DNA of 25,011 bases from a virus, in IMG/VR virus record IMGVR_UViG_3300033150_001115, positions 1 through 25,011 of that record, one strand, 5' to 3'. Under the pieces are notes generated by a model. It ran no database searches and was not told where the DNA came from. It saw only the letters and a program-made list of their open reading frames with translations. The position numbers and the translations under genes were made by a program. This document shows, piece after piece, positions 1-24,177 of this stretch. Positions within the stretch are counted from its first letter, which is position 1; each line of letters starts with the position of its first letter.

Positions 1-2
1 CA

Positions 3-1379
3 ACAGCACCCATTGTGATAATGAGCGGGGGAAATCGTTTGGGTAAGAGCCACGCTGTGATAGCTCTGGCCGTGGCCCTCGCCTGGGGCTACCGCCTCTG
101 GGAGACCAACCAGGACCGGCCCGAAAACGGCACGTTCCTGCCCCGAGAGGAAGTCCCGGCCAGTAGCTGGATCCTGCGCGCCGACGGCCTCCCGATCCAG
201 GTGCCGAACCGCGTCGTCTACTTGACCGGCCTCAGCCTGGAGCGCGGAATCGGCGAGATCTTCTGGGAGAAGTTCCGACAGCTGGTGCCGAAGGAGATCA
301 AGTACCAGGTGAAGACCGGCTCGTTGGGCGTGCCCCGGAAGATTATCTGGCCCAACGGCTCGGAGCTGATTCTCGGTAGCGCCCTGCAGCAGCAGGCCAC
401 GAGGCAGATGAGCTTCGAGGGGTTCGCGGCCGATGCCGCCCTCTTCGACGAGCCACTGGATCGGAAGACCTACATCGCCGTCAAGCGTGGCCTCATCGAC
501 CGCCATGGTCGTCTCTGGTGGTCTCTGACGCCGGTTGGTCCCAACTGTCTCTGGATCGCCAGCGATCTCCTGAACGAGGAGCGCACCGACGTCGAGCTGC
601 TCCAGGGCGACCCGATGGAACAGAACCCGTACCTCGACCGGGCATCGTTCGAGGCCTTCTTGGACGATGCGGCCCTGACGGATGAGGAGCGGGAGGCGCG
701 CCGCTACGGCAAGTTTTCGATGGTCAGCCGCAACATCGTGACCACATTCGGGGATCACGCCATCATCGAACCGACGGAGATCCCGTTGCACATACCCCGT
801 GTCATGGTATCGGACCCTCACCATGCCCGACCGACCGTCAGCATCTGGGCGGCTGTCTACGACGACGGCGAGCGGCTGGTCATCTACCGGGAAGACCCGG
901 GCTACGACATGACCAAGAAGCGGAAGTTCATCCCGTTCAGTGAGTGGGCCGGGCGGGTGAAGGCCGTTGAGGGACGGGAGCCGATCTTCTGGCGGTTTGT
1001 GGATCCCCAGTTTGGCCCTGCGAAGCCCAGCGTCCTCGGCCAACGCCAGCAGTCGTTCGTGGAGCGGGCGGCCGAGTACGGCCTGATCTACAACTACGAT
1101 GTCGACAACACCATCGACACCGGAATCGAGCGGCTCCGTGAGGCGTTCCGGGTCAGTGACATCACCGGTCGCCCCCGGGTCCAGGTGTTCAGGTCGTGCC
1201 ACAACACCATAAAGGCGTTGCGGATGTGGAGTTACGAGGAGACGGCATCGGGTACCTTGAAGGTCAGCGAGAAGTTCAAGGACCGGGTGGACGTGGTGCG
1301 GTACATGTTGTCCGCCCAGGTGCCGTTTTACATAGGAAGCGGAACCGGTTGCAACTACCTGGAGGATGTAGATGATTGA
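3..1379 (+). CDS. terL: Terminase large subunit (5' end cut by window edge)
   Basis: This is the DNA-packaging motor ATPase and nuclease, which docks on the portal and pumps genome into the prohead. The frame is open to the window edge and reads TAPIVIMSGG before the Walker A motif GGNRLGKS, so the GTG at 15 is probably not the start; the N-terminus, with the adenine-binding region, lies upstream. Numbering from that GTG, Walker A is at residues 5-12, Walker B is AALFDEPL near 141-148, and the coupling motif SLTPVG is near 170-175. The C-terminal RNase H-like nuclease has likely acidic residues D267 (VSDPH), D330 (FVDPQ) and D426 (RVDVVRY). Order and spacing of these motifs are typical of terminases. 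The stop overlaps the next start by 8 bases. I am very sure of the family, but not of the 5' boundary. Confidence 0.95.
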   Translation, partial: TAPIVIMSGGNRLGKSHAVIALAVALAWGYRLWETNQDRPENGTFLPREEVPASSWILRADGLPIQVPNRVVYLTGLSLERGIGEIFWEKFRQLVPKEIKYQVKTGSLGVPRKIIWPNGSELILGSALQQQATRQMSFEGFAADAALFDEPLDRKTYIAVKRGLIDRHGRLWWSLTPVGPNCLWIASDLLNEERTDVELLQGDPMEQNPYLDRASFEAFLDDAALTDEEREARRYGKFSMVSRNIVTTFGDHAIIEPTEIPLHIPRVMVSDPHHARPTVSIWAAVYDDGERLVIYREDPGYDMTKKRKFIPFSEWAGRVKAVEGREPIFWRFVDPQFGPAKPSVLGQRQQSFVERAAEYGLIYNYDVDNTIDTGIERLREAFRVSDITGRPRVQVFRSCHNTIKALRMWSYEETASGTLKVSEKFKDRVDVVRYMLSAQVPFYIGSGTGCNYLEDVDD

Positions 1380-1933: not shown

Positions 1934-2698
1934 ATGGACCTGGTATACATCCACTTCGGACACAGGCGACCTACGTTCCGCTACGGGGTGGAGCTGGGGA
2001 GCCGAATGCTACGGGATAGAGGAATCGACTGCCGTGGAATCGCCATCCTCGACCGGCCGACTCCGGATGTGGAGGGTGCGGTAAACGAGGCACTTGGTGA
2101 TTACTGGCTGGACATATGCAAAGTCGATTGGACACAGATGGCCCCGAACTGGGACGCTCGCTTCAACGCCGGGCGGCAGTTCGGCTTGGACGTCCTCGAG
2201 AAAACTGGTGCGCGCCCCAAGTGGGTCTGCTTTCTCGACGACGACATCCAGTATGGCCCGGCCTGGTTCGCCTACATCAAGAAGGTGTTGGCGGACGATA
2301 AGGTGCTGGCCTGGCGGATCGTCAGCCTGTTCCTCTGGAACAACTGGCATATCGTGAACACCAAGCAGGAACATCGGGTGACTCACTTCTTCAGATATCG
2401 GCCGGGCAGCAAGATGCGCACGGACCTGGTAGTACACCATACCGGGGACATCCACGAGGAGATCGAAGAGAATCCGGAGCTGATCAAGACGCTGCCCTGG
2501 TATGCCATCGATATCAGCGGCATCTGCGCCCAGGCGCGGCGAGAGATGTTCAAGCGGCAGGTGCAGTCCGGGAAGTATGATCCGTTCACGTTCAGGTGGA
2601 TTGAGGACCCCGACCCCATGTCCCTCGAGGACGCCTTGAGGATGGAGCCGGAGGCCTATTGGCATATGCAGATGAAACGAATCCACGGGAAAGGGTAA
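1934..2698 (+). CDS. Putative GT-A-fold glycosyltransferase
   Basis: A 254-residue protein with the outline of a GT-A nucleotide-sugar transferase. It opens with a beta strand (MDLVYIHFGHR), then has a helical stretch and a hydrophobic strand ending in acidic residues, CFLDDD at about 99-104, the expected place for the metal- and sugar-nucleotide-binding DXD motif. His and Trp residues follow (NNWHIV, VVHHTGD), and a late strand reads YAIDISG. It lacks the DTGSTD-type N-terminal motif of classical GT2 enzymes, so it is a divergent member or another GT-A family. No clear ribosome binding site precedes the ATG, which lies two bases after the previous stop, so translation is probably coupled. 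It sits between terminase and portal, an unusual place for a sugar-transfer gene. The donor and acceptor cannot be read from sequence. Confidence 0.6.
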   Translation: MDLVYIHFGHRRPTFRYGVELGSRMLRDRGIDCRGIAILDRPTPDVEGAVNEALGDYWLDICKVDWTQMAPNWDARFNAGRQFGLDVLEKTGARPKWVCFLDDDIQYGPAWFAYIKKVLADDKVLAWRIVSLFLWNNWHIVNTKQEHRVTHFFRYRPGSKMRTDLVVHHTGDIHEEIEENPELIKTLPWYAIDISGICAQARREMFKRQVQSGKYDPFTFRWIEDPDPMSLEDALRMEPEAYWHMQMKRIHGKG

Positions 2699-2701
2699 AC
2701 G

Positions 2702-4684
2702 ATGGGTTTGAATCGACTGACCAACCCTGTGTCAATTCAAGTTTTAGGGGAACTGAACTACGATCAGTTCGAGTCCGATGTCAGCAAGCTGAAGCTGCGG
2801 ATCTCCAGGGACGACGACAGCCGGGCCTCGTGGCTGAAGGACGTCAAGGAGATCATCGAGCAGCTGAATGGGAAGGACGAACGGGAGCATAAGCCGTGGA
2901 AGCACGCCTCCGACTTGTCCATGCCCCTGACCAAGAAGCTGCTACGGCGCTGGATACCGGTGCTCTACAACCTCGTGGCCGGGGCCGATCCGGTCACGTA
3001 CTTCTATGCCGGGGACGCCAAGGCGGCCGTCCAGTCCCCCAGCGCCGAGGCTTTCTTCGATTGGCTGTTCAAGGTCTACATGGACGACAGCCTCAAGGAG
3101 ATACGCTATCTGATCTACAACATCGGGGCCAAGGGCGTCGGCTTTCTCGGGGTCCACTGGGACTACCGGACCGAGGTGACAACCCAGGTGATCCAGGTCG
3201 AGGACATCTGGCCGAAGGGGCCGCCGCCCGACATCAACAGTATCGTCGGCACCCTCATCGAGCAGTATTTCGTCAAACCGCTGCGTCCCGAAACCCAGCA
3301 GTCGCTGATGGAGGCGGCTCAGCGAATACTCGAGGGGCAGAAGTTCGTCAAGTTGACCTACACCCGGGTCGTGGCCGACAAGCCGCGAATCCGCTGCTAT
3401 CGCCCCGAGGACGTCGTCGTCCCTATCGACTCCGAGGCCACCCACGATGCCGACTACGTCTGCCTGATCCACAAGCTGCTGCCCGACCGGTTGCGGCAGA
3501 TGGCCCAGGATGGAATCCTCAACCCCGAGGCCGTTGAGGCGGCGATTGGTGGCACTCCGGCCGAGGACACCCGGCAGGCTGACTCCTACGATCGGGAGCA
3601 CGATCACGACGCCGGGCTGCAGACAGAGCTTGGGGCCGAGGACGGGCCGATGACGGTCTACCAGGTCTACTGCCGTTTGGACATCAACGGCGACGGGATC
3701 GGTGAGCGGTGTGTCCTCTGGTACGCCAAGGACAAAGGGGAGGTGCTGGCCCTGCACCCGTACCCCTACCCGTTCGATTACTGGCCGGTATTCCGCTTCG
3801 ATTTCGAGGATACCGAGCGCGGGCCGTTCCGGAGCCGGGGAATCGGCCACCTGCTCAAGGACTTGCAGGACCAGTACAACAAGCAGTACCGGGCGACCAG
3901 CGACGCCATCGACATCCAGCTGGCCCCGGTCTTCATCCGCCGGGCTGCCTCCCCGCTCATGCCCCGTACGTTCAAGTGGGGCCCGGGGGCGATCCTCGAC
4001 GTCTCCAGTGTCGGGGAACTGCAAATGTTGGAGAAGACGCCCCTCAACCTGCACCAGTACCTCCAGGACCGGGCCGAGCTCAAGTCCTTTTCGGAGGAGC
4101 TGGTCGGTTCGATCGACGCGGCCCTGGCGGCCACGGGGCGGCGACTGGAGCGCCGGACGGCCTTCGAGGTGGACAAAGTGTCCGGCATCATCGAGCAGAT
4201 CACCAGCATGGACTCGGCCACGTTTCAGAGCGTGATGGGCCGGGTGTTTCAGTGCATCTGGGATCTCTGGATCGCCTTCGGACCCAACGAGATCTATTTC
4301 AATGTCCTCGGCGAACCGGAGCCCAAGCTGTTTCGGAAGGGCGAATACCAGTACAAGTTCACGCTGGTCCCGGCCGGTACGCCCGGTAACACCAACCGAC
4401 GCTACATGCTGGCCATGGCGATGCAGATCCTCGAGATCTTCATGAAGGCCGGGCCGGATCTGATAAATCGGCACTTCTTGCTCTTCTACATCGCCAACCT
4501 GCTCGATCGGCGGCTGGCCAAGAATGCGTTCCTGCCCCAGCACCAGCAGGCGCTCAACTCGTTTCTACAGCAGCTGGCCCAGCAGGTGGCGACAGGGAAC
4601 GCACCGGAAGTGCTTCAGCAGTTGACGGCTACGGAATTGCCACTACCTGAAAACTTGGGAGGAACGGCAGGTGGAGAAGCTTGA
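2702..4684 (+). CDS. Portal protein
   Basis: A 660-residue protein forming the twelve-fold ring at one head vertex through which DNA enters and leaves. The assignment rests on size, position after terminase and before scaffold and capsid, and a characteristic stem-region stretch near residues 370-405 (RSRGIGHLLKDLQDQYNKQYR and the following AI-rich helix). The N-terminus is helical and charged with the motif KPWKHASDLSMPLTKKL. The C-terminus is Gln-rich (QQALNSFLQQLAQQ), as in podovirus portals with a helical barrel. The start is an ATG 4 bases after the preceding TAA, with GAAAGG upstream. The 3' end overlaps the next gene by 14 bases. The exact portal subfamily cannot be set by eye. Confidence 0.88.
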   Translation: MGLNRLTNPVSIQVLGELNYDQFESDVSKLKLRISRDDDSRASWLKDVKEIIEQLNGKDEREHKPWKHASDLSMPLTKKLLRRWIPVLYNLVAGADPVTYFYAGDAKAAVQSPSAEAFFDWLFKVYMDDSLKEIRYLIYNIGAKGVGFLGVHWDYRTEVTTQVIQVEDIWPKGPPPDINSIVGTLIEQYFVKPLRPETQQSLMEAAQRILEGQKFVKLTYTRVVADKPRIRCYRPEDVVVPIDSEATHDADYVCLIHKLLPDRLRQMAQDGILNPEAVEAAIGGTPAEDTRQADSYDREHDHDAGLQTELGAEDGPMTVYQVYCRLDINGDGIGERCVLWYAKDKGEVLALHPYPYPFDYWPVFRFDFEDTERGPFRSRGIGHLLKDLQDQYNKQYRATSDAIDIQLAPVFIRRAASPLMPRTFKWGPGAILDVSSVGELQMLEKTPLNLHQYLQDRAELKSFSEELVGSIDAALAATGRRLERRTAFEVDKVSGIIEQITSMDSATFQSVMGRVFQCIWDLWIAFGPNEIYFNVLGEPEPKLFRKGEYQYKFTLVPAGTPGNTNRRYMLAMAMQILEIFMKAGPDLINRHFLLFYIANLLDRRLAKNAFLPQHQQALNSFLQQLAQQVATGNAPEVLQQLTATELPLPENLGGTAGGEA

Positions 4685-4928
4685 TTTCGACCAGTTGGCC
4701 GAGGATGGTTCGGTAGAGATCATCAACGAGGTGATCCGGGACGGCCGCGACACCGAGTTCGGCCAGTGGGTCCGTTGGCGAATCAGCAAACTGAAAGCGG
4801 CGACGGTGGATGCCATCGCCACGGCCAAGGATGATGCCGAACTCTGGCGGATGGTCGGCCAGCTTCGGCTACTGAACACGTTACATAGTTGGTTGTTTGA
4901 GGAGGTACAGCATGAACGGCGAAGCTGA
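4671..4928 (+). CDS. Small helical protein between portal and scaffold
   Basis: An 85-residue, acidic to mixed-charge protein predicted to be mostly helical, from its alternating hydrophobic and charged residues (DFDQLAEDGSVEIINEVI; LWRMVGQLRLLNTLHSWLFEE). It starts with GTG preceded by GGGAGG and overlaps the portal gene by 14 bases and the scaffold gene by 17 bases, so it is translated as part of the head module. Such small genes are common between portal and scaffold in podovirus-like phages, but I do not recognise a family. A role in head assembly is inferred from position only. Confidence 0.7.
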   Translation: MEKLDFDQLAEDGSVEIINEVIRDGRDTEFGQWVRWRISKLKAATVDAIATAKDDAELWRMVGQLRLLNTLHSWLFEEVQHERRS

Positions 4929-5754
4929 AAACAAAACTCAAGATCAGAATCAGAATGTCGACCCCCAGCTCGGTGCCGGGGGAGAATCGAACGAAGAAGC
5001 CCTGAAGCAGAAGCGAGATAAGATCCAGCGTCGAATCTCGCAGCTTTGGGGGGAAAAGAAGCAGGCCCAGGAAGAGGCTGCCCTGTACAAGCAGCAGTTT
5101 CAGGAACTCCAAGCACAGCTCCAGGCTACTCAGGAGGAGCTCGCCCTTCTCAAGAGCAACGCCGGATCCGGCCTCGCGGTCCCTAATGTTTCCGGGTTCG
5201 GATCCAGCCCGGCTGCAGATCCCTCACAGGTGAAGCAGCTGGTCACTGAGGCAGTCAAGGAGACTGTTGGTCCCCTTCTTGATGAGTTCCAGAAGACGAA
5301 GCAAGTACAGGAACTCCGGGTCAAGCAGCGGGAAGCGTACATGAAGGCCGTGACGGAATTTCCCGAACTGGCCGATCCGTCCAGTGATCTGTTTCAGGCC
5401 ACGGACGAGGTCCTCAAACGCAACCCCAAGCTGGCCAACGATCCGGAAGGTCCCCTGACGGCTGCCCTGATCGCCCAAGGCATCCTTGCCCGGGCGGGCT
5501 CGGAGCTGTCCGGTGGCCCGATCCAGCAGGCGACCCCGCAACAGAAGGCGGCGGCGTCGGTACCGCCCCCGTCTGCGGGAGTGAATCTGCCTGCGGGACC
5601 GAAGCAGCAACTTCAGCAGCTGGAGCAACAGTACGAGGAGCTCATGACCAAGCTCAGGAATACGGTCGATACCGTGGAGATCCAGAAGCTGTGGCGCGAG
5701 CGCTCAAGCCTGGTGGCTCAGATGGAGGGCCTGCGCAAACAAGCTGGTAGTTAA
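4912..5754 (+). CDS. Putative capsid scaffolding protein
   Basis: A 280-residue, Gln/Glu/Lys-rich protein directly before the major capsid gene, the usual place of the scaffold that templates prohead assembly and is then lost. Residues about 25-80 form a likely coiled coil (KRDKIQRRISQLWGEKKQAQEE). A low-complexity Gly/Ser/Pro linker follows, then a helical middle, a Pro/Ala-rich segment near 205-225 and a C-terminal coiled coil rich in Gln with basic residues, as in scaffold capsid-binding tails. I chose the ATG at 4912 because GAGGAGG lies 7-13 bases before it; a TTG at 4897 in the same frame would overlap that site. No protease domain is apparent. The assignment is by context and composition. 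Confidence 0.75.
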   Translation: MNGEAENKTQDQNQNVDPQLGAGGESNEEALKQKRDKIQRRISQLWGEKKQAQEEAALYKQQFQELQAQLQATQEELALLKSNAGSGLAVPNVSGFGSSPAADPSQVKQLVTEAVKETVGPLLDEFQKTKQVQELRVKQREAYMKAVTEFPELADPSSDLFQATDEVLKRNPKLANDPEGPLTAALIAQGILARAGSELSGGPIQQATPQQKAAASVPPPSAGVNLPAGPKQQLQQLEQQYEELMTKLRNTVDTVEIQKLWRERSSLVAQMEGLRKQAGS

Positions 5755-5771: not shown

Positions 5772-6698
5772 ATGGCCAGCCTTCAAACTTGGGACGAGAT
5801 AGTTGCTTCTACTCTCGACTCGAACAAGACCATCCGGGAATCGTTGCAGGACAGTATCTACAACGTCGCCCCGGCCGACACGCCCATTCTCTCTCGAGTG
5901 AAGCAGGTAGGCATCAGCCACTTTTTCACGCAGTGGCTCGAGGACACCTACCGCTCGGCCGCGACCAACGCGGTGCTCGAAGACTGGGCGTTCACCGCAA
6001 AGGACAAGACCGTCCCCAGCCGCGTGTCGAACATCTCCCAGATCTTCTACACCGGTGGACGGATCACCGACACCCAGCGGGAAGTCGAGCATGCCGGAAT
6101 GGCGGATCCCCTCGCCTACTACGAGGCCAAGGATGTGATCGAGCTCAAGAAGGACATCGAGCTCGCCCTCGTCCGTGGATCTGCTGTCACCGGTACGACC
6201 GACACCGCGCGGCAGATGAATGGTCTTCTCAACATCATCGACACCAACAAGACTGCCATCTCCGGTATCACGTTCACGGAAAAGGTCTTCAACGACCTCA
6301 TTCAGCTCACTTGGGACGTGACCCGCGAGATGCCCACCGAGGTCTACTGCTCGCCTTATGTGCGCAGAACCATCTCGTTGTTCTCCACGAAGGTCACCCC
6401 GTTCGTGCAGGCCGAGGCCAAGAAGCAGGTCCTCGCCACCGATACGTACGTCAACGATTTCGGTGAGTTCAGGGCGCTGCTCCATCGCGAACTCTCCAAC
6501 GGGTTCAGCTCGACCAACGAAGTCTTCGCGATCCGGCCCGAGCACCTGGCGACCGGGTGGCTCAAGCCCCTCAAGAGGGAGATCCTCGCCCGAGACGGTC
6601 TGCGCGTTCGGTACCAGATAAGCTGCGATCTCTCGCTGCTCTATCGGTCCGAGAAGCCGTTCTTCGCGGCCACGTCCGTCTACCCCTACATCCCTTGA
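5772..6698 (+). CDS. Major capsid protein, DUF5309/SU10-like HK97 fold
   Basis: A 308-residue protein that builds the icosahedral head shell. The sequence follows the DUF5309 (SU10 major capsid) pattern: an N-terminal helix leading to APADTPILSRV (33-43), the strand motif FFTQWLEDTYRSA (51-63), a segment SRVSNISQIFYTGGRITDTQ (83-102), then a helix with ELKKDIELALVRGSA (124-138). A C-terminal beta-rich region ends RSEKPFFAATSVYPYIP. Length is normal for the family. The ATG has GGGAGG ten bases upstream. Scaffold lies just before it. No N-terminal cleavage domain is obvious, so the shell protein may need no large proteolytic trimming. Recognition is from remembered family pattern, not a search. 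Confidence 0.88.
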   Translation: MASLQTWDEIVASTLDSNKTIRESLQDSIYNVAPADTPILSRVKQVGISHFFTQWLEDTYRSAATNAVLEDWAFTAKDKTVPSRVSNISQIFYTGGRITDTQREVEHAGMADPLAYYEAKDVIELKKDIELALVRGSAVTGTTDTARQMNGLLNIIDTNKTAISGITFTEKVFNDLIQLTWDVTREMPTEVYCSPYVRRTISLFSTKVTPFVQAEAKKQVLATDTYVNDFGEFRALLHRELSNGFSSTNEVFAIRPEHLATGWLKPLKREILARDGLRVRYQISCDLSLLYRSEKPFFAATSVYPYIP

Positions 6699-6779: not shown

Positions 6780-6977
6780 ATGCACTATTCGGAAGCGTTA
6801 CAGTGGTTCGAGCGGAACTTGACCTATGGACTGCACCGGCCGTGTGACCGGGCCCATGGGCGGGAGGCGCTCAAGACACTCTATCGGATCGTACACGAGT
6901 ACGAAGAACTGAAGAAACGAGAGGAGAACCATGCGGCAAAAAGACCCGAGAGTGTTCGTAAGGGGCCAGGGAGTTGA
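6780..6977 (+). CDS. Small hypothetical protein after the capsid gene
   Basis: A 65-residue basic protein, probably helical (YSEALQWFERNL; EALKTLYRIVHEYEELKKR), of unknown family. The ATG at 6780 is preferred over an in-frame ATG at 6756 because AGGAGGTGA (6769-6777) sits just before it and nothing similar precedes the upstream codon. Its 3' end overlaps the following gene by 47 bases, and the last dozen or so residues are of low quality, as expected where the second frame dominates. A role in head completion can only be guessed from position. Confidence 0.6.
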   Translation: MHYSEALQWFERNLTYGLHRPCDRAHGREALKTLYRIVHEYEELKKREENHAAKRPESVRKGPGS

Positions 6978-7245
6978 GGAATGGCTCAAGATGCTCTGGA
7001 ACGCCTGGAGTCGGAAATTCCCCAAGAGAGCAGCAGCGTTCATAGAGCACATCAAGGAGCAGAAGCAGAACCTGGTGGTGGCCTCCGGTATGAGTAGGGA
7101 TAAGACGATGGCGTATACGGGTTCGATCCCGACGGATCTGTATCTGGTGATTACTGCGAAGTATCCGACATTCTTCAATTCGCCTCTCAACATGGAGTTG
7201 GCGCACCAGATCTTTTGCGGAGACTACCGACCCAAGAGGAAGTAG
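6931..7245 (+). CDS. Hypothetical 104-residue protein
   Basis: A small basic protein with no family I recognise. The N-terminal half is helical with aromatic residues (VEEWLKMLWNAWSRKFPKRAAAF). The C-terminal half contains a short strand-like stretch (PTDLYLVITAKYPTFF) and ends in basic residues. The ATG is preceded by GAGAGGAGA, and the gene overlaps the previous small gene by 47 bases, indicating coupled translation. Its TAG stop is merged with the next ribosome binding site (TAGGAGG, 7243-7249). Lying between capsid and glycosyltransferase, it may be a virion or assembly factor, but the sequence does not show that. Confidence 0.65.
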   Translation: MRQKDPRVFVRGQGVEEWLKMLWNAWSRKFPKRAAAFIEHIKEQKQNLVVASGMSRDKTMAYTGSIPTDLYLVITAKYPTFFNSPLNMELAHQIFCGDYRPKRK

Positions 7246-7254
7246 GAGGACAGC

Positions 7255-9717
7255 ATGAGTGGTTATAAAGTCAAGGTTCCCATCAGTTTATGTCTGATTG
7301 GCCGAAACTGTGAGAAGGACGTCGACCGGTTCGATCGGGAAGTCGTCAAACAACTGTTCGGCCACACGAAGGACGAGGTGATCTTCGTCGATACCGGCTC
7401 GACTGACAAGACAGCAGAGCGAGCGGCCAAATGTGGATGGCTCGTAATCGACGGCAGCCACTTCATCAGCAAGGAATTGCTCGAATATGCCAAGAAGGTA
7501 GCAGGTAAGGAGTTGGAAAAGTTCAAGAATCACGGCCACATCAAAACTGGGATCATCGAATCCTTTGCTGCTGCCCGGCAGCACTCTTTCGATATGGCCC
7601 GTAACCGGGTGGTGATGTGGCTCGACTTGGACGATTCATTGACGGAGCCGGTGGCGCTGCGGCAGTACATCGATATGTGCTTCAAGGACGGCAACCGACA
7701 CGGGGCCCTGTTCCTGCCGTATGACTACGCCTTCAATCAACACGGTGAGTGTATCCTGACCCTTTGGCGGGAGCGGGTGGTGTCGAAAGAGGACTACGAG
7801 TGGAAGGGGGCCTGTCACGAGGTCCTGGTCTTCAAGAAGGACCGGGAACGTCACATCAACTTCATGGCCAGGGACCCCAATTTCCCGTCTCGTGTCATCC
7901 ACAAGAAACCCCCGGCTACCCAATTCAGCGACTTGCGCAACTACGTTATCATGCGTTGGGACCTGGATGTTAAGAAACATGATGACCCCAGGACGTACTT
8001 CTACCTGGGTAATGCCTGCCGGGGTCTACATCGGTGGAAGGAATCGATCGAGTTCTACAAGAAGTTCGTGGACATCAGCGGGAATTATGAAGACGTTTTC
8101 ATGGCCTATGTCAGCTGGGTCCACGCCCTCACGCAACTGGAACGATTCTGGGAGGCGCTGGATATCGCCGACAAGGCAGCCAAGATCAAACCGTTGGATC
8201 CCCGGCCGCTGCACATGAAGGCCGAGCTCTACTTCAGGATGCGACACTGGAAGGCCGTACTCGAGTGTCTCCAGCAGGCGGAGGGCCGCCCGGTTCCGGA
8301 TACGCTCCATGCTGTCGACCCGACCAGTTTCGAGGTCATCCCGCCGCTACTTGGTGCCTGGGCGGCGCGAGAACTGCGCCAGCCGGACCTGGCCATGAGG
8401 TATGTGGGCCAAGCCATGCGGGAAAACGGGCGGAACCCGGAGGTGAAACGGGCATTCGACGACATCAGCCGCTGGGCCCAGGCCGAGAAGGTGGCCCAGG
8501 CTCAGGTGGTGGCTGTCCGAACCGCCAGCCGCGACCCCTACGAGACGGCCATGGCCATCAACATCAGCCCTCACGCCGCCGATTACGGGTTCGCGTCCCC
8601 CGAGCGGGCCGTGCCGGGTGGTTATGGAGCCGCCAAGACCCTGGCCATCTTCTGTCCGCACACCTCAACCCGCTGGGGTCCGAAGACGGACGGACGCGGG
8701 CTGGGGGCCAGCGAGAAGATGGTGTGGCTGATGGCCAAACGGTTGGCCAAGCGGGGTTTGTCGGTGACGGTCTACTGCCGATTGGCAGATCCGCCCGGGA
8801 AATACGAGGGTGTTCACTGGCGGCACTACGCCACCTTCAACCCGAAGCTCTACCGCGACTACGTCCTCTTGTGGCGGTGCCCCCAGGCGGCCGCGGAGAT
8901 AAAACCCGCTGCTGGAAGAGTTTACGTGTGGATGCACGATGTGGGGCACGACTCGGTCTGGACACCGGAGGTGCTCAAGCGGGTCGATAAGGTCTTCTTT
9001 CTCAGCAAGTTCCAGCGCCAGAAGCATCCGACGGTCCCAGAGGGGAAGGTGTTCTACACCCGCAACGGCATCGATTTGAACGTCCATCTGTACAACGGAG
9101 AGCCGAAAGAGAAGAAGATCGTCTACCTCTCCTGTCCGACCCGTGGCTGGCAGACCAGCATCCGGATCTTCGACGAGTCCGGACTGGTCAAGGAGGGCTG
9201 GAAGCTGCACCTCTTCTACGGGTTCCTCGAGGCCTTCGACGACGCCTGTAATCACCAAGTGGCCGGATACGTCCCCGACCTGGGGCACGAGACCGTGCTT
9301 CGCGAGTTCCAGGCCGACTGTCTCCGGTTGGCCGATGAGACTCCGGGGGTGGTTCGGCGCGGGCTGGTCAACTGGCACCAGATCGCCCACGAGCTGAAGA
9401 CGGCGTCGATCTGGCTCTACCCGACCCGGTTCGACGAGATCAGCTGCGTGGCCGCGATGGAGGCGATGGCGGCTGGCTGCAAGGTCCTGGCCACGGAGTC
9501 GGCGGCGCTGAAGGAGACCCTGGCCGACTACCCCGGCTGGGTGAACCTCAGCCAGAGTCAGCCGGTCATGTGGTCGTCGCTGCTCAGGAACGCAGCTTTT
9601 AATGGGTCTGACCCAATTAATTGGGCTCAGCATGCAAAACGCTTTGATATCGAGGCACTTGCGGAAAAATGGTTACAGGAGGTGTTTACCGAAGTATCGG
9701 CCATGGCCGGTAAATAG
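7255..9717 (+). CDS. Fused GT2-like / TPR-like / GT4-like glycosyltransferase
   Basis: An 820-residue three-part protein. Residues 1-215 look like a GT2 (GT-A fold) domain: strand start SLCLIGRNCE, nucleotide-binding VDTGSTDKT (45-53) and the DXD site WLDLDDS (122-128). Residues about 243-415 are paired helices of TPR type (YFYLGNACRGLHRWKESIEFY and repeats). Residues about 463-817 look like a GT-B GT4 enzyme: GLGASEKMVWLMAKRLAKRG near 482-501, HDVG at 561-564, and an E-x7-E motif at E728 and E736 within FDEISCVAAMEAMAAG. The ATG follows GGAGGA with correct spacing. GT2-TPR proteins are familiar from bacteria; joining them to a GT4 domain gives a possible two-step sugar-adding enzyme. Its place between head and tail genes suggests it acts on virion proteins or is made with them, but the target is unknown. 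Confidence 0.85.
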   Translation: MSGYKVKVPISLCLIGRNCEKDVDRFDREVVKQLFGHTKDEVIFVDTGSTDKTAERAAKCGWLVIDGSHFISKELLEYAKKVAGKELEKFKNHGHIKTGIIESFAAARQHSFDMARNRVVMWLDLDDSLTEPVALRQYIDMCFKDGNRHGALFLPYDYAFNQHGECILTLWRERVVSKEDYEWKGACHEVLVFKKDRERHINFMARDPNFPSRVIHKKPPATQFSDLRNYVIMRWDLDVKKHDDPRTYFYLGNACRGLHRWKESIEFYKKFVDISGNYEDVFMAYVSWVHALTQLERFWEALDIADKAAKIKPLDPRPLHMKAELYFRMRHWKAVLECLQQAEGRPVPDTLHAVDPTSFEVIPPLLGAWAARELRQPDLAMRYVGQAMRENGRNPEVKRAFDDISRWAQAEKVAQAQVVAVRTASRDPYETAMAINISPHAADYGFASPERAVPGGYGAAKTLAIFCPHTSTRWGPKTDGRGLGASEKMVWLMAKRLAKRGLSVTVYCRLADPPGKYEGVHWRHYATFNPKLYRDYVLLWRCPQAAAEIKPAAGRVYVWMHDVGHDSVWTPEVLKRVDKVFFLSKFQRQKHPTVPEGKVFYTRNGIDLNVHLYNGEPKEKKIVYLSCPTRGWQTSIRIFDESGLVKEGWKLHLFYGFLEAFDDACNHQVAGYVPDLGHETVLREFQADCLRLADETPGVVRRGLVNWHQIAHELKTASIWLYPTRFDEISCVAAMEAMAAGCKVLATESAALKETLADYPGWVNLSQSQPVMWSSLLRNAAFNGSDPINWAQHAKRFDIEALAEKWLQEVFTEVSAMAGK
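9603..9625. repeat. Two overlapping palindromes inside a coding region
   Basis: TGGGTC-T-GACCCA (9603-9615) is a palindrome around one base, and CCCAATTAATTGGG (9612-9625) is a perfect 14-base palindrome sharing four bases with it. Both lie in the last 40 codons of the glycosyltransferase gene, where base use shifts towards A and T. In RNA only one of the two hairpins could form at a time. An operator-like or attenuator site ahead of the adaptor gene is possible, but chance is not excluded. Confidence 0.4.
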
Positions 9718-9732
9718 AAGTGGAGGTTGAAG

Positions 9733-10698
9733 TTGCTCGATTTCACCTTGTATGAAGCGATCAAAGAGGTCCAGCGGATGACGGGCCGGAACGACCCGGA
9801 GTGGACCGAGCGTATCGAGTCCGCCATCCGCCGGGCCTACTACGCCTGGGAGTCGGAGTTCGCCTGGAGGGATCTGATCTTCGAAGCAGACCTCACATTC
9901 TACGGCGACGACCCCTATCTGGTCCTGCCCCAGGACGTGGAGAAAGTGCTGTGGATTGTCGACGCCGACAACTACGCCGAGATCGAGGCCTCGGATGGGC
10001 AGTGGGACCGTACCGATACCTATGCTCTCGTCACCAAGTACCGAGGATACGCAAAGCAGTGGCAGCCGGTCGGCATCCGGCCGTTCGCGACACTGGTTTC
10101 GACCCAGACCCTGACCCTCGAATACGTGGCGTCGGTACCGTTCGACACCCACATCAAGCAGTTTCAGGTCCGTGGCTACTGGCAACTGTCTGGGGCCACC
10201 CTGGCCAATCAGGTGTACGAGGCATTCCAGCAGTACGAGGCTTCGGGTGTGACGGCAGCAGCAGCGGTCTTCGACCTGGGTGCCGTTCTCACCAATTGCC
10301 TCTCTATCAACCTGGTCTCTGCCCTCACCTGCCCGGCTGTCTTCAAGGACGCTTCCGGGGCCCAGATCGGGATCGTCCCCCCTGGCTGCCGCACGTCGCA
10401 GTACTACTGGGTCAAGCTGTTCTACATGCCCCAGAATGGCACCAAGTTCCACTACGGCGCGATCCGGCGGCTCAGCCCGGTAACGCACTTCAGCCTCTAC
10501 TCCGACACCATCCTGCCCGGGGCCGACCCCGAGTATCTGGTGTGGCGGGCCGCCAGCGATATCTTCACCGAGATGGGCGAAGAGGAGCGGGCCGGGCTGG
10601 CCATGCGCCGGGCCTCGGGCGTGCTGCGGCGGCAACGTGAAAAAGAAGTAATGTTCGGTGATCACTCCAGTCGGATCATCCCGGAGGACTTGACGTGA
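9733..10698 (+). CDS. Putative head-to-tail adaptor protein
   Basis: A 321-residue protein placed between the head genes and the nozzle gene, fitting a ring adaptor that joins portal and short tail. The N-terminus is a helical block (RIESAIRRAYYAWESEFAWRDL) followed by a beta segment with DDPYLVLPQDVEKVLWI, a pattern common in podovirus adaptor-type proteins: helices, Trp-containing turn, then an LP.D strand. The C-terminus returns to helices (GEEERAGLAMRRASGVLRRQ). I set the start at TTG 9733, since GGAGG at 9722-9726 is six bases away; a TTG at 9727 abuts the site. The stop overlaps the nozzle start by four bases (GTGA). The role is inferred from order and pattern. Confidence 0.6.
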   Translation: MLDFTLYEAIKEVQRMTGRNDPEWTERIESAIRRAYYAWESEFAWRDLIFEADLTFYGDDPYLVLPQDVEKVLWIVDADNYAEIEASDGQWDRTDTYALVTKYRGYAKQWQPVGIRPFATLVSTQTLTLEYVASVPFDTHIKQFQVRGYWQLSGATLANQVYEAFQQYEASGVTAAAAVFDLGAVLTNCLSINLVSALTCPAVFKDASGAQIGIVPPGCRTSQYYWVKLFYMPQNGTKFHYGAIRRLSPVTHFSLYSDTILPGADPEYLVWRAASDIFTEMGEEERAGLAMRRASGVLRRQREKEVMFGDHSSRIIPEDLT

Positions 10699-12368
10699 AA
10701 CGACTCGAACAGTACTGGTTCGGCCCCGAGGAGGGCATGAACTACGACATCCACCCGTTCCTGTTGGGGGACAAGAAGGCCCCCTATCTCAGGAATGTGG
10801 AGCTGAGATCGGACGAGTCGCTGCGCTGGGCCCGCTGTGATATCAGCCTCGGCGGGCCCTACGCCACCAGTTACTCACCGGTTTTCAGCCTCTTTGCCCG
10901 GTTCGATATGACAAACCAGACGTATGTCCCCTACGTCCACGCGGGCAACTTCGTATGGTACAACGCCTCCGACGACCCCTACCAGTTCCAGTGGACGATG
11001 GCGACCCACTTCTCGTTGGCCGCTGTCGACACCCGCTGGGTCGTGGCCGACGGCATCAACATCGCCAGTGGCTACAGCAATTCGTTCTTCTTGCTGGCCT
11101 GTGCCGGGCTGGAGCCGTTCACCAACGTCACGTACCCCAATCTGTTGCTGTGGAGCTGTGAGGACCCGGCCATCTACACGGTCCACTCCTCGTACGCGCC
11201 CAACTGGGTGACGGCCTATCAGGGGCGACTCTGGATCACGGAGCCCCCGACCCGGCTCCGGTGGACGAATATCGACGATGGCGTCACCTTCGACCCGTCC
11301 AACTACCTCGAAATCGACCCGGGTGACGGCGACAAGGTGGTGGCCGTGGTGCCGCTCCGGTCCATCGAACCGCGCCTGGTAATCTTCAAGAAGCGGTCGA
11401 TTTTCTTGCTCGATATCGTCTGGAGCGACGGGGCGCTGATCCCCACGACCGAGAACAGCATCGACACCACCAACTCGGCCGTCAAGATCATGAGCAAAGA
11501 GATCGGCTGCATCGCCCCTAAGACGATCAAGTACGTCACGGGAAGCGAACGAGCCGATATCTTCTTCTTGTCCGACAAGGGCGTGTTCTCGGTCCTGCGG
11601 CTGGAGCAGGACATCGGCGGTGGCCTGTCCGAGCCGATCAGCCAGGGGATCCAGGAGTTCATCAGACGGATGACCCCCAGCGCGGCCCACAAAGCCACCG
11701 CGGCCGTCTTCGACAACAAGTATTACCTGGCCTTGCCGATCGATGGTGCGACCGAGAACAATGCCGTCTTCGTCTTCGACTTGGTCCGGAAGCGTTGGGA
11801 AGCCATCCTGGACCGGAGCGTGGTCGAGTTCCTGGTCAACACCATAGCCGACGAGGAGCGGCTGCTGGGCGCCATGTTCGACTCCACGATAGCCAGCCCG
11901 CAGCACACCGTCACCGCACCGTCGGGGGCCACACTCCTCAGCGACTGCTGGCCGGTGCTGATGATCGGGGCGCTCTCGGGCACGACCCATGTCACCCTGC
12001 CCGGCGCCGATTACGAATTCCACGTGGAGACCCCGATCTTCAACCTGGGCGTCCCCAGCCGGGTCAAGCGCTGGGACCGGGTGGAGCTTTACTACCACTA
12101 TGAGCCGGTGGACAACCGACCATTTGTGAAGCTCCGGTACCGTACCAGCCGGGACGGCTACACCACCGGTGAGTGGCCCCTGTTGACGGAGTTCACGTTA
12201 CCGGCGGCCGGGTCGGCACTGCATATGAACATCCAGACGAGCAACCTGGCCGATGTCCGGCCTTCGGAATACATACAGTTCAAGGTCAAGTCGGAAAATG
12301 CCCAGACTTTCAGACTGCTGGGGATCCGAATTGTGGGAAGTGTTCAAGAGGATATCTGGGATAGATAG
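10695..12368 (+). CDS. Putative tail nozzle / beta-propeller tail protein
   Basis: A 557-residue protein of mainly beta structure. It has the recurring signature of podovirus nozzle-type proteins: YQGRLWITE (about 175-183), a strand with FDPSNYLEIDPGDGDKVVAV, LVIFKKRSIFLLD, then GCIAPKTIKYV and DIFFLSDKGVFSVL. These Trp/Phe-ended strands resemble beta-propeller blades and form the tail tip through which DNA leaves the head. The start is GTG with GGAGG seven bases upstream, overlapping the adaptor stop by four bases. The C-terminal 150 residues form a separate beta domain (FHVETPIFNLGVPSRVKRW) that may carry a fibre or receptor interaction. No enzymatic motif is visible. Confidence is good for family type, less for exact role. 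Confidence 0.72.
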   Translation: MKRLEQYWFGPEEGMNYDIHPFLLGDKKAPYLRNVELRSDESLRWARCDISLGGPYATSYSPVFSLFARFDMTNQTYVPYVHAGNFVWYNASDDPYQFQWTMATHFSLAAVDTRWVVADGINIASGYSNSFFLLACAGLEPFTNVTYPNLLLWSCEDPAIYTVHSSYAPNWVTAYQGRLWITEPPTRLRWTNIDDGVTFDPSNYLEIDPGDGDKVVAVVPLRSIEPRLVIFKKRSIFLLDIVWSDGALIPTTENSIDTTNSAVKIMSKEIGCIAPKTIKYVTGSERADIFFLSDKGVFSVLRLEQDIGGGLSEPISQGIQEFIRRMTPSAAHKATAAVFDNKYYLALPIDGATENNAVFVFDLVRKRWEAILDRSVVEFLVNTIADEERLLGAMFDSTIASPQHTVTAPSGATLLSDCWPVLMIGALSGTTHVTLPGADYEFHVETPIFNLGVPSRVKRWDRVELYYHYEPVDNRPFVKLRYRTSRDGYTTGEWPLLTEFTLPAAGSALHMNIQTSNLADVRPSEYIQFKVKSENAQTFRLLGIRIVGSVQEDIWDR

Positions 12369-14178: not shown

Positions 14179-15888
14179 ATGCCTTTGACTGGACAAGATT
14201 ACTATGGTGGGATGCGCCAGCTGGCCCAGATGCAGGCCCAGTTCGGTCTGGCTCTCAAACGGCTGATCCAACAGGAACAGCAGTTCAAGCAGAGCCACGA
14301 GCTGGCCAAGAAGAAATTCGCCGAACAGGTGGAATACTGGAAGGCACAGAACCAGCTGCTCGAGACCAAAGTTCAGATCGAGATGCAGCGGGCCAAATCG
14401 GAAGAAGCTCGATGGAAAGCTACAAACCAGCTACTTTCCGATAAGTTTAAGGAAGCCAAGCGGCAATTCGAGGCCAGGTTTACGGCCGAACAAGAGCGCT
14501 GGCAGAAAACATTTGACGAGTACAAAAAGAACTGGGAAGTCAATCGACAGGCTGCTCTCCAAAATATGGAAAAGGTGCAGCAAGAAATCAAGAGTATGAA
14601 AGTTGACGATCAGCTGAAAAAGCTGTCTGGTCAGCTGCGCCAGAAAGCACAAGCCTTGGCTGAGCTCCGGTTCGAAGAAGACAAGAAAACAGCCGAAGTC
14701 AAACGGAAAGCGCTCCTCAAAGAGATCGATGTCCTCACCCAGAAGATTGAGGGTATGAAGGTAGACGACCAGTTTAAGAAGTGGCAAATGACTATCGGAG
14801 ACGCTCAGCAGAAGTTGCGTGAACGAGAAGTCATCGAAAAGGAAAAGACCGGTGTGGTTCAGAGAGAAGCTGTCAAGGCACAGACCGAAGCCACCAAAGC
14901 CAGGGCAGAAGCCACGCGGGCCCAGTCTTACTACACGGAAGCCCAGACCGAAGCCGTACAAGCACAAACCGAAACGGAGCGGATGCGGCAAGAGGTTATA
15001 GCTGGCGGTTACGAGTCGCTGTCAGAAGAAGAGCGGAAGAAACTCGGCAAGGCTGGTGTTGCCCGTTTCTTCGGTTTGAGTCCCGAGACGTCAGCTTTCT
15101 TGGGTGGCATTGTCATTCCTGGCCCCGAACCCGAGGCTCCTGCCGATATCTCTGTTAAGGAACTGAATGCTCTGGAGAAGACCGCATCCGATACTGTCAA
15201 GCAGTACTTGTCTCTTCGGATGCCGACGGGTGACGTAGTCAGTACTCCGCAGGATGTAGACCGTGTCGAAAGTAGTTACTTCAAGAACGAAGTACAGTCG
15301 AAGTTGACGGTCGTGAATAACCAGTTGACTATGATGGGTCTGAAATCTATCGAGGCCAGCTCCATTGAGCAGGCCAGTGCGGCTCTCAACTCCATCATGG
15401 CCGAACTGAAGAATCCCGAGAAGTCTGCTAAAATGATGAAGGACCTGGGCTGGACAGTTGATCAGTTCAATCAGAAAATGACCCAGCTTTCTGATTTCGA
15501 AAAAGACATCACGGTTAAGAGCCGCCAGTTCGCGCAGATGCGGGAAGTCACGCACCGGCTCAATCAATGGACCAGTGACCAATTCTCGAGACTATACTAC
15601 ACCAACAAGACAAAGGGTACTGGTCAGCCATTGCTGGCTTCGAAACAGCAGTTTGATCAGATGCTCGGCCCGGTACTCAAACGGTTCACCGGCCTCATGA
15701 ATAACTCCGACTTCGTCTCGAATCTGCAGAAATTCTACTCGCTGTCGGATCCGAAGACCAAGGAAGGTCAACAGCTACTGACCAGTTTACTCAAGGAGTT
15801 CAACGCTACTTACGACAAAGTTTCGGATGCAGACGCGCAAATCTTCAAGGCGGTTATCTTTTCGACGCATCCTGCTGGAGGTAAATAG
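14179..15888 (+). CDS. Long coiled-coil virion protein
   Basis: A 569-residue protein whose residues about 20-275 are an almost unbroken charged coiled coil (FKQSHELAKKKFAEQVEYWK). MKVDDQ followed by L/F-KK occurs twice, at residues 140 and 193, 53 residues apart, pointing to an internal duplication. An AQTEA-type repeat follows at 234-266 (AQTEATKARAEATRAQ). After a Pro-rich hinge near 311-322 (IVIPGPEPEAPADI) a second helical region has Gln/Met-rich helices. GAGGAGG precedes the ATG. Base use is unlike neighbouring genes: 14521-14580 has 26 G+C of 60 (43%) against 39 of 60 (65%) at 17281-17340. The product may be a rod-like core or ejected protein. No family recognised. Confidence 0.65.
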   Translation: MPLTGQDYYGGMRQLAQMQAQFGLALKRLIQQEQQFKQSHELAKKKFAEQVEYWKAQNQLLETKVQIEMQRAKSEEARWKATNQLLSDKFKEAKRQFEARFTAEQERWQKTFDEYKKNWEVNRQAALQNMEKVQQEIKSMKVDDQLKKLSGQLRQKAQALAELRFEEDKKTAEVKRKALLKEIDVLTQKIEGMKVDDQFKKWQMTIGDAQQKLREREVIEKEKTGVVQREAVKAQTEATKARAEATRAQSYYTEAQTEAVQAQTETERMRQEVIAGGYESLSEEERKKLGKAGVARFFGLSPETSAFLGGIVIPGPEPEAPADISVKELNALEKTASDTVKQYLSLRMPTGDVVSTPQDVDRVESSYFKNEVQSKLTVVNNQLTMMGLKSIEASSIEQASAALNSIMAELKNPEKSAKMMKDLGWTVDQFNQKMTQLSDFEKDITVKSRQFAQMREVTHRLNQWTSDQFSRLYYTNKTKGTGQPLLASKQQFDQMLGPVLKRFTGLMNNSDFVSNLQKFYSLSDPKTKEGQQLLTSLLKEFNATYDKVSDADAQIFKAVIFSTHPAGGK

Positions 15889-18800
15889 TGCCGAGCATAT
15901 TCGATCCTGATTACATCAAGAAGATGGCCTCGGAAGTTGATCGGCTTGTGGGGGAGGATTCGGCTAAGCCCCAAAAGGACCCGGATCCGCCCCCCGAGCA
16001 GCCTCAGCCCCAGCCCATGCCGGAGCCGCTTGTCCAGGATCTGGACGACAAGCGGCCGTTCCTGGGCACCCTCCTCGACACCAGCTCGATCCTCTACAGC
16101 AAGGGGTTGGGGATCAAATCGTCAAAGGATGTGCAACGGGCGCTGGCCGCCCAGCTGGCAACACCCACCACCGAAGACGATTGGGTCATTCGTGAACAGC
16201 AGCGCATGGATGAGCTGGTCGAGGCCTTCAGCAAACGGGGTCTGGCTCTGTATCCTGAGGAGCTGAAAGACTTTGCCGAACACAAGAAGGGGTTGGAGAC
16301 CCGAATGGCTGCCGCCTACGGCTCGGCTTGGGATGCCGTCGGCGATCCCCAGCTGAACGCCACCGTCTCCTCGTTGGCCCTCTTCGACCACCTCGTGGAT
16401 ACGGCCAAGTTCAAGGACGTCGAGGAGTCGATCCGGGTGCACGAGGCAGCAGTCGCCCGGTTCATGAAAGCATTCCCGGACAAGAGCGGAGGTAAGTTGG
16501 CGAACTTCAACGCCTCGAGTCTGATGGCGCTACGGGAGCTGGCGGCCCAGCACATATCGGACCCGGACATGCCGGATGCCGAAGACGCCGCCAAGCTGCT
16601 CACCGAGATCGTCACCGGCGAGAAGGACAAAGTTGACAACGAGGCAATCGCCAACTTCGGCCGCTTGTTGCAGCGGGAAATCAACATCGGGGTGAAGCAA
16701 GCAAAGCTGTCCAAGTTTGGGATTCGTGTGGATCGGGAAGCCTTCGACGAGTTTGGAGGCCTCGACTTCAGAGTGTACCCGTTCTTCAAGGATGCCCGGA
16801 ACAAGTACGAGCTCCTCTACCGCAACGACGCCATCGTCGGCAACCCCCGTTACTTCATCCGGCACCGGCTGGCCAGCACGGTCGACACCCGCGCCCGCAA
16901 CAGTGTCGAGGACGCGGTCCAGCTGCTGTCTGAGGTGACTGGGGTACTGCCGAAGGAAGGTACGGTCAAGTATCTCTATGGCCTCGACGACGAGGATCGG
17001 GTCCGTGCCGTACGGCTCATACTCTCGGCCAAGGACCCGAGGCAGCTGCCGACCCCGAAAGTGGAGGAGGCCCCGGCCCCCTCGGCCATGGCCACGCAGG
17101 AAGCATACAAAGCCCAGGCCGGGCGCGAGTTCTTCACGAAAGCCCCCGGCGACTCCATGGTCCTGTCTCCCCACACCAAGTTCAAGCACTGGCTCGAGAA
17201 GCAGGAAGCCGAGTTCCTGGCCAAGGTACCGGAGCGGGTCAAGGAGGTGAACAAGCTGCTGTCCGGTGACGAGGTGCCGAAGGAGCAGGTATGGGAGGGG
17301 CTGACGTCGGCAGTGGTGAAGGAGCGGCAGGATTGGAGCCGCCGCGCCCTCGACACCGCCTTCGAGAAGCTGTCGGCCGCCGAAGCCAAGGCTCTCCTGA
17401 TGGGCAGTCACCACCCCCTGGCCTGGGGGATGTGGCTGATGTCGGCTCCGTGGGAGGTCGTCTCCAAAGCCGTCAACACTCCCCTCAATTGGCTGAAGAA
17501 AGAGCTCGACCTCGAAGACAGCCAGAGTCTGGCCGACGTCGTCTACACCGGCATCGGCAAACTGGCCCTGGCCCAGCAGGTCCGGGAGGATCAACGGGAT
17601 CTGCTGGCCAACTGGTCCGGCGCCCGCTTGCCCAAGCTGTCCGTACGAGAGCTGGGTGAAAAGATTTTCGCCACGTCTTCACGAGCAGCCCAGTGGAAAG
17701 CACTGGCCGAGGAGTACAAGGAGAAGGGGGCCAGCCTCTGGGAATCGGCCCTGGCCAACTTCGCTTTCTTTCAGTTCCTCGGCAGGGATCTGCCCAAGGA
17801 TCTGACCCAAGCCGCTGTCGAAGACCCGGCCACGGCCGTCGTCGGCATGTTCCTACCGAAGGGAGCCCGGGCCATGCAGGCCAGCAAGCTCTCCTCGCTC
17901 CGGTTCCTGGGAGCCGGGCTCGAGACCGTCATAGAGCCGTGGCGGGCCCCGAAGGTAATCAAGGGTCTGTTCAGTGGCATCAATCCCAGCAACGTCATCA
18001 CCTACGGCATGTCGGCCCGCAAGTTCCGGCGGATGCTCAATAAGATGCCCGCCGAGATCCGGGCCAAGGAGTTGGCCAAAGCACAGAAGTATGCCCAGGT
18101 GGCCCGGCAACTCGGCATCGGCAACGAGGCCTACCTCGAGGTGCTCTCCAACCAGCTGGCCCACCAGAACATGCTCCTCAAGAAAGGGTTGAAGCTGGGG
18201 TTGGACGACGTCAAGTACATGCTTGACGCCGCCGAACACGGCATGGGGCCCGAGCTGGCCCGCATGGCCATGCTGCCCGAGAAGCTGCGGGGGAAGGTGC
18301 CGGAGCCGCTGACCAACGTGGCCGTCCGGGCGAAGCTGGCCCAACACGAGTTGGCTCAGTGGGAGCGGGGGCTGAAGACCGGCAAGATGCCCCAGACCCT
18401 GACCCAGGCCATTCTCGACGCCAAAGAAGCCTGGCACACCTTCGACCCCAGCCGGTTCCGGAAGTGGATCACCGAGCATCGGGCCAAGATGGAGCCCGCC
18501 CTCGAGTTCATGTCCGAGCGGATGGGGCTGAAGCCGCTGGTGCAACGTGTCCGGACATACTTCGACAGCCTCGAACTACGATCCGGGAAGATCACCGAGA
18601 ACCTCGAATACATCAAGCAAGGCGAGGCCCTCTATCGGGCGGCGAAGGAACAGCGCCTGGCCGTCAAGGAGAAGCTGGAGTTCTACGAGACCATGCGGGA
18701 GGCCCTCGACACCAAGATGCGGGCCTACGACACCATCCTCAGCTTCGAGCGGGAGTCGGTGAAGCACGAGTGGCGGCAGACGGCCGAGATCCTGGACACC

Positions 18801-22864: not shown

Positions 22865-23377
22865 CTACATCTCCTTATCCACAAGACCGTACCGGATGGC
22901 GTCTTTCAGTTCGAGATAGATCATACTCTTGCCTTTGAGTTTCTTGCGCCACCAGGCCCGGGTCTTGCCGGTAAATTCCGTCATCAAGTCATAGAACAGC
23001 TTGCGCTCTTTCTCGATTGCCAGCCGATCGGCCGCGGCCGCTGCCGGATCCTCGCTCACTTCAGTCAGATAAGGTTCGTGAACGCCAAGGAGGGCGTAGC
23101 GGTGCATGTAGCGCAACCCCGGACTACCCATAGCGGCGAGAACCGCGAAACCGGAAAGGCAGTCGCCATACGTTTGTGTAATCAAACGATTCTGTGTCCT
23201 ATGGTATTCTACATGACCAAACAATAGACGATACATATCAGCATCAGTACCAGGACCACATAGATTAAGCTGAATGTGCTTAGCTGGATAGAGCCGAGCG
23301 GCAATTGATATTTGTCTTATGATATCATTGCTCAGCTCACCAATAACGTCGAAAAAAATTGCGTTCTCATCTACCAT
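22865..23377 (-). CDS. ClpP-like serine protease, possibly with altered catalytic triad
   Basis: A 170-residue protein of the ClpP/crotonase fold. The likely nucleophile is Ser75 in YGDCLSGFAVLAAMG, the pattern of the ClpP active site. His100 follows in MHRYALLGVHEP, matching the ClpP histidine strand. A Gly-rich strand (CGPGTDADMYRLLF) lies where ClpP has its SPGGS oxyanion motif, and the C-terminus KDAIRYGLVD matches the ClpP EAxxYGLID ending. An ungapped alignment to the family end puts Met152 where ClpP has catalytic Asp. The start is the ATG at 23377, since GGAGG is 6 bases upstream; the longer reading from 23398 would place the ribosome binding site inside the gene. It overlaps the previous gene by 11 bases. 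It could degrade host or phage proteins, or mature heads; the minus-strand context argues for an early or middle role. Confidence 0.75.
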   Translation of the reverse strand: MVDENAIFFDVIGELSNDIIRQISIAARLYPAKHIQLNLCGPGTDADMYRLLFGHVEYHRTQNRLITQTYGDCLSGFAVLAAMGSPGLRYMHRYALLGVHEPYLTEVSEDPAAAAADRLAIEKERKLFYDLMTEFTGKTRAWWRKKLKGKSMIYLELKDAIRYGLVDKEM

Positions 23378-24166: not shown

Positions 24167-24177
24167 CTCTACCTCCT
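24164..24177 (-). promoter_or_regulatory. Junction element AGGAGGTAGAGATG, copy 3
   Basis: AGG AGG TAG encodes the final Arg-Arg and stop of the metallophosphoesterase and doubles as ribosome binding site for the zinc-ribbon-like gene, whose ATG begins two bases after that stop. Confidence 0.75.

Follow-up and report, generated by a model that had tools for sequence, protein, structure and literature searches.

A predicted GT2-TPR-GT4 fused glycosyltransferase in a phage head operon as a candidate enzyme for virion glycosylation

Tailed phages are commonly imagined as particles of bare protein; to our knowledge, glycosylated particles have been documented for only a small number of phages. 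From the window analyzed here, which is the entire 25,011-base viral record IMGVR_UViG_3300033150_001115, a head and packaging operon can be deduced on the plus strand of the left part, with the gene order terminase, portal, scaffold, SU10-type capsid protein, g8, a predicted GT2-TPR-GT4 enzyme, adaptor and tail protein (Table 1). This raises the question of what a fused glycosyltransferase is doing between capsid and adaptor genes, for which a preliminary description of the DNA had proposed a dedicated virion-glycosylation enzyme adding two sugars in turn.

Table 1. Head operon genes of the window and domains and motifs of the fused glycosyltransferase; nucleotide positions refer to the window, residues to the enzyme.
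Feature	Nucleotides	Residues	Strand	Basis or remark
Terminase	15-1379		+	
GT-A-like ORF, candidate second glycosyltransferase	1934-2698		+	Between terminase and portal; PF00535 at 0.011, below cut-off
Portal	2702-4684		+	PF23899 SU10_portal, 8.1e-18
Presumed scaffold	4912-5754		+	Homologues; position between portal and capsid genes
Major capsid protein, SU10 type	5772-6698		+	PF17236 SU10_MCP, 2e-57; phrog_1328, 2.1e-53
g8, 104 aa	6931-7245		+	Directly 5' of the enzyme in most lineage-1 relatives
GT2-TPR-GT4 fused glycosyltransferase (predicted), 820 aa	7255-9717		+	
GT2-type GT-A domain	7255-7980	1-242	+	
DTGSTD	7390-7407	46-51		GT2 domain
WLDLDD	7618-7635	122-127		GT2 domain
HE	7816-7821	188-189		GT2 domain
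TPR-like helical region, proposed protein-substrate dock	7981-8559	243-435	+	TPR_2, 9.7e-7; helix pairs in AlphaFold2 model
GT4-type GT-B domain	8617-9714	455-820	+	
RNGID		603-607		GT4 domain
SCPTRG		626-631		GT4 domain
E728-x7-E736	9436-9462	728-736		GT4 domain
Presumed head-tail adaptor	9727-10698		+	Synteny and homologues
Presumed tail / stabilization-type protein	10695-12368		+	Homologues are annotated phage stabilization proteins in loci L002 and L003

The tight spacing between capsid and adaptor genes described beforehand is confirmed, as the enzyme gene is separated from each neighbor by only 9 bases and its ribosome-binding site, a perfect AGGAGG at 7244-7249 located 5 bases 5' of the ATG, overlaps the g8 stop. 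Its GC content of 59.6% is like that of the operon, and a sigma-70-like promoter was not detected in the first 13.2 kb of the window. While the capsid gene is assigned by direct family matches, none were obtained from Pfam and PHROGs for the gene 3' of the enzyme. The latter is named adaptor because of its position and its homologues, including a PF24175 SU10_adaptor found 3' of the enzyme in a second lineage; for this gene, an alternative start at TTG 9733 with GGAGG ahead is possible. The ORF between terminase and portal genes possesses an invariant DDD motif and syntenic homologues in L004, L006, L009, L032 and other loci, was unmatched in the annotated phage collection and may encode a second glycosyltransferase of the head operon. 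Besides, the plus strand contains an ORF of 65 codons (6780-6977) that has a strong AGGAGG site, lies between the capsid gene and g8 and overlaps the g8 start. Outside the operon, a 2301-aa protein (15888-22793, plus strand) that may be an internal virion protein or one that is injected shows little similarity even to its part seen in the close relative L004, and two minus-strand ORFs resemble by eye a ClpP-type protease (22865-23398; SGFAV, MHRYALLGVHEP) and a metallophosphatase (24169-24861; GDVLNLDS, GNHEAR).

The reading frame of the enzyme is intact, with all 820 codons open. Pfam assigns its N-terminal part to GT2 (PF00535, 2.4e-7, above the cut-off) and the following region to TPR_2 (PF07719, 28.9 bits versus a cut-off of 27), and the C-terminal matches to Glyco_transf_4 (4.5e-6) and Glyco_trans_1_4 (1.5e-4) are both slightly below the curated cut-offs; from PHROGs, glycosyltransferase families match at 6.9e-17 and 1.3e-12. 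As an AlphaFold2 model built from four sequences was of low quality (pLDDT 63.6), a run with an alignment of 49 homologues was used, resulting in a model that is confident throughout (pLDDT 93.1, pTM 0.89). When the structure search against GT2 and GT4 families that had been suggested at the outset was performed by Foldseek with this model, the N-terminal half led to SunS and ThuS and the C-terminal half to retaining GT4-type enzymes, namely tll1591 (TMt 0.72), PimA (0.68) and also MshA. OGT and SPINDLY (SPY) ranked first by E-value because of their TPR-plus-GT-B arrangement, yet with low TM-scores and large rmsd. Like FlmG, these enzymes have TPRs adjoining a GT-B catalytic domain, but they belong to GT41, whereas the GT-B domain of the phage enzyme is GT4-like; hence, the arrangement is similar without the family being the same. 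A membrane-like segment is absent from the enzyme (maximum 19-residue hydropathy 1.42). Membership in GT2 (GT-A) is supported by Pfam, motifs and model, that in GT4 (GT-B) by motifs and structural matches, and that of the middle region in TPR by Pfam and the helix pairs of the model; the protein is predicted to be a true GT2-TPR-GT4 fusion, with exactly the domain order originally read from the letters.

Alignment of the 49 homologues corroborates the conservation of the catalytic residues. In the GT2 domain, WxDxDD (here D124/D126/D127) and HE188-189 are invariant (49 of 49); DTGSTD is intact in the window's enzyme, with D46 being kept in 38 and G48 in 46 of the aligned sequences. Invariant residues of the GT4 domain are N604, R630, H561-D562 and E728. 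Of the residues expected in such folds, D46 would represent the nucleotide-binding Asp and D124/D126/D127 the DxD metal motif of GT-A, and R630 the basic phosphate-binding residue of GT-B. The second glutamate of the E-x7-E motif, E736, is present here and in 36 of the 49 homologues but replaced by lysine in 12, so that the motif in the preliminary description is real in this enzyme without being universal. In line with the earlier impression of two intact catalytic modules, the motif sets are complete, the AlphaFold2 and Foldseek results agree with them, and both modules are predicted to be intact and presumably catalyze sugar transfer.

For assessing the likely acceptor, a profile of the GT2 domain only, with the TPRs removed, was compared with solved structures, closeness thus being relative to what has been solved. 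GmaR was matched across the whole domain at 1.6e-36, followed by SunS (1.1e-18) and ThuS (9.9e-15), whereas polysaccharide enzymes came next with about 45 bits or less and partial domain coverage. With the full enzyme profile, SunS was matched at 1.8e-25 over profile positions 4-352, and the HE motif is common to the GT2 domain of the phage enzyme, GmaR and SunS. By these profile comparisons, the GT2 domain is related to polypeptide glycosyltransferases of the GmaR/SunS type. SunS, which is derived from the SPbeta prophage, and ThuS are S-glycosyltransferases modifying small bacteriocin peptides on cysteine; their GT-A plus TPR-like architecture resembles the N-terminal half of the phage enzyme, but they are devoid of a GT4 domain and encoded outside a head operon. 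Flagellin, the substrate of GmaR, and capsid protein are both many-copy subunits of structural polymers. In GmaR, a GT-TPR protein that transfers GlcNAc to Listeria flagellin and also acts as MogR antirepressor, the TPRs following the N-terminal GT2-type domain have been proposed by the authors to recognize the substrate (PMC9638930), and the TPR domain of FlmG binds flagellins (PMC7591256). However, GmaR is encoded by a bacterial chromosomal gene and bears an antirepressor domain at the C-terminus where the phage enzyme has GT4 (PMC9638930). Considering the kinship with GmaR and SunS, the docking by TPRs and the flagellin parallel, a protein acceptor is most likely and, given the operon, this would be a virion protein.

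While a single-protein scan of viral contigs did not find relatives, alignment-based scans succeeded, and at least 555 enzyme-encoding stretches were confirmed in viral contigs by scanning with the enzyme profile. The best 80 of these were fetched, and further loci came from other scans; in genome_contigs, none of 71 pattern matches was confirmed as an enzyme relative. Gene position was counted in 100 loci whose enzyme ORF is long, including a few near-duplicates. In line with the survey proposed beforehand for a position next to the capsid gene, the latter is found upstream on the same strand in 73 loci (median frame gap 632 bases), 49 of which also have adaptor/tail homologues downstream. 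This count is not circular, since nearly all loci were obtained by enzyme similarity alone; L004-L006 were first found with the capsid protein and then again with the enzyme profile. In the other 27 loci, a capsid gene was not detected, some of them being fragments and a few representing sugar cassettes outside this head operon. As evidence against a virion role, the preliminary description had named relatives carrying the gene in a host-sugar operon without link to structural genes. Placement inside sugar cassettes with no capsid gene detected does occur (L079, L085, L089, and L098), but most relatives keep the head-operon position. In L085 and L089, which belong to larger phages, the enzyme gene opens a sugar cassette just 3' of fiber-like or repeat-rich genes.

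When the capsid protein alone was used for scanning, seven loci exceeded 50% identity, each of them on an enzyme-carrying contig, and six were distant, the enzyme being detected in none of the latter. In a second lineage, the enzyme gene is situated between a capsid gene of a seemingly unrelated family (phrog_14242, 3.1e-47) and SU10_adaptor (PF24175, 2.4e-20). The capsid-to-enzyme interval of this lineage (L016, L018, L020, and L107) encodes glycine/serine-rich linker proteins and repeated NRDxDxSEQ proteins, possibly decoration proteins and glycan acceptors. LUZ24/tf-like and SU10-like podoviruses share the kind of capsid protein, the portal and the gene order around the slot with the window's phage, but the enzyme is absent from the inspected records of cultured phages of the same capsid family (LUZ24/tf-like, Sulfitobacter, Rhizobium, and Microcystis). 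Hence, the enzyme is accessory but stable in the head operon. In MW202711 and MW202496, a short slot gene bears the annotation 'putative glycosyltransferase'; it was left out of the evidence.

In many relatives, further genes including a glycan-synthesis cassette are found 3' of the enzyme within the capsid-to-adaptor interval. Among 67 slot ORFs, Pfam identified 20 further GT2 members as well as GT4 members, cytidylyltransferases, LicD and sulfotransferases, a tally indicating presence rather than frequency, as the ORFs were hand-picked with a bias towards sugar genes. Rhamnosyl O-methyltransferase-like proteins (8.6e-56), a GDP-mannose dehydratase (3.8e-118) and a DegT aminotransferase (1.4e-72) are also encoded. 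The phage of the window represents the minimal form of the slot, having one fused enzyme plus the separate GT-A-like ORF 1934-2698. Within or close to the head operon, GroEL-like chaperonin genes were observed next to glycosyltransferases at positions 5644-6993 of L080 and in MW202497 (L003, 5640-7208, annotated as groeL). Besides the capsid protein, which is a candidate substrate of the enzyme, g8 is a possible partner or substrate. Profile matches to g8 were obtained in about 60 enzyme-bearing loci and in none of 13 enzyme-less ones; g8 had zero PHROG matches and showed no significant profile match to the small post-capsid protein of enzyme-less LUZ24-like phages (hhalign probability 0.4%). 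A Ser/Thr-rich capsid protein was considered as a mark of the substrate and dropped, because the Ser plus Thr content is only slightly higher in enzyme-bearing than in enzyme-less phages (0.179 versus 0.154) and this difference is confounded by ancestry.

In 45 loci having enzyme, capsid and portal genes, the protein distances of enzyme and capsid protein are strongly correlated (r = 0.88), close to the value of the capsid-portal control in the same loci (r = 0.92), and neither correlation was reached in any of 2000 permutations. The partial correlation between enzyme and capsid protein given the portal is 0.52. Stable linkage and co-inheritance of the enzyme with the head genes are thus found, which support virion glycosylation without defining it, and since enzyme distance tracks capsid distance, free exchange of the enzyme as cargo is not expected.

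Modification of the host surface is the main rival to a function in virion glycosylation. By altering O-antigen or some other glycan of the surface, a late enzyme acting on the host envelope could help released virions to avoid debris or prevent competing phages from adsorbing, and its place in the head operon would then reflect late transcription only. A late operon would indeed express such an enzyme at the right time, and pelagimyophage glycosyltransferases encoded beside tail-fiber genes have been interpreted likewise (PMC7029224). The whole sugar cassettes in the slot of relatives and the annotation of the phage PaBG relative as LOS glycosyltransferase also fit host-surface modification. 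Nevertheless, we consider it rather unlikely, as the enzyme has no membrane segment, is co-inherited with the capsid gene almost as tightly as capsid is with portal, and possesses a GT2 domain whose closest solved kin use polypeptides as acceptors, polysaccharide enzymes following at a distance; moreover, TPR docking domains suit protein acceptors. In addition, judging by integrase, which was found in only one of 14 related records, lysogenic conversion by the enzyme seems unlikely.

Improbable, too, is the enzyme being mere accessory cargo in an insertion hotspot, where position would say little about function. The capsid-to-adaptor interval is highly variable in its genes, and enzyme-less relatives have HNH endonucleases or a tail spike in this region, but in most loci the enzyme remains immediately 3' of g8, and it follows the phylogeny of the capsid protein; the variation mostly concerns additional genes, among them many sugar genes. 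Hydroxymethyl pyrimidines usually originate from enzymes of the thymidylate-synthase family. A thymidylate-synthase-family gene was found in none of the 14 related records (33-53 kb, possibly incomplete; only this base-modification route was searched) and neither domain relationships nor gene position suggest an activity on DNA, so that glucosylation of modified bases in the phage's own DNA, a role that is classical for glycosyltransferases of phages (PMC12619734), is highly improbable.

The best explanation of the enzyme is therefore, with good probability, a protein glycosyltransferase that is soluble, expressed late and dedicated to the virion. The initial proposal of such an enzyme is favored by the head-operon position, the GT2 kin glycosylating proteins and the slot cassettes, while the minority of relatives in sugar cassettes for which no capsid gene was detected does not conform to it. 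In the mechanism we propose, the TPR region would dock a structural protein, which could be the capsid protein, g8 or a further protein of head or tail, and the GT-A/GT2 domain would use a nucleotide sugar to attach a first sugar to a side chain. Extension of this sugar would then fall to the GT-B/GT4 domain, an order we infer from the presence of two active sites. In relatives, the extra enzymes of the same operon slot might elongate and decorate the glycan, and the purpose would probably be an altered particle surface.

As far as the descriptions in the cited sources go, phage-encoded glycosyltransferases decorate capsid and tail-tube proteins of mycobacteriophages Che8, Corndog and Myrna (PMC12363180, PMC12619734), and in Maravista, a relative of Che8, glycosyltransferase genes are located near the genome's 3' end (PMC11256854). 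These are different phages, and the likeness drawn here to the fused enzyme is one at the level of description. While phage-encoded virion glycosylation as such is known already, the GT2-TPR-GT4 fusion and glycan cassettes in the head operon of these phages are apparently new, as no prior description was found in the open-access literature searched; this absence is not proof, since most subscription papers lie outside that scope.

More tentatively, a widespread group of environmental podoviruses could carry glycosylation islands in their capsid operons, with the fused GmaR/SunS-like and GT4 enzyme starting a glycan on a virion protein and variable slot genes elongating and decorating it to variable, serotype-like coats resembling the glycans of bacterial flagella; we regard this as plausible, though not yet as probable. 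If true, many uncultured phages would devote part of the head operon to a glycan coat of their own, with bearing on adsorption, particle stability, recognition by host and predator, and phage-phage competition. A GT2-TPR-GT4 gene 3' of the capsid gene would then serve as gene marker for selecting isolates suited to tests of virion glycosylation.
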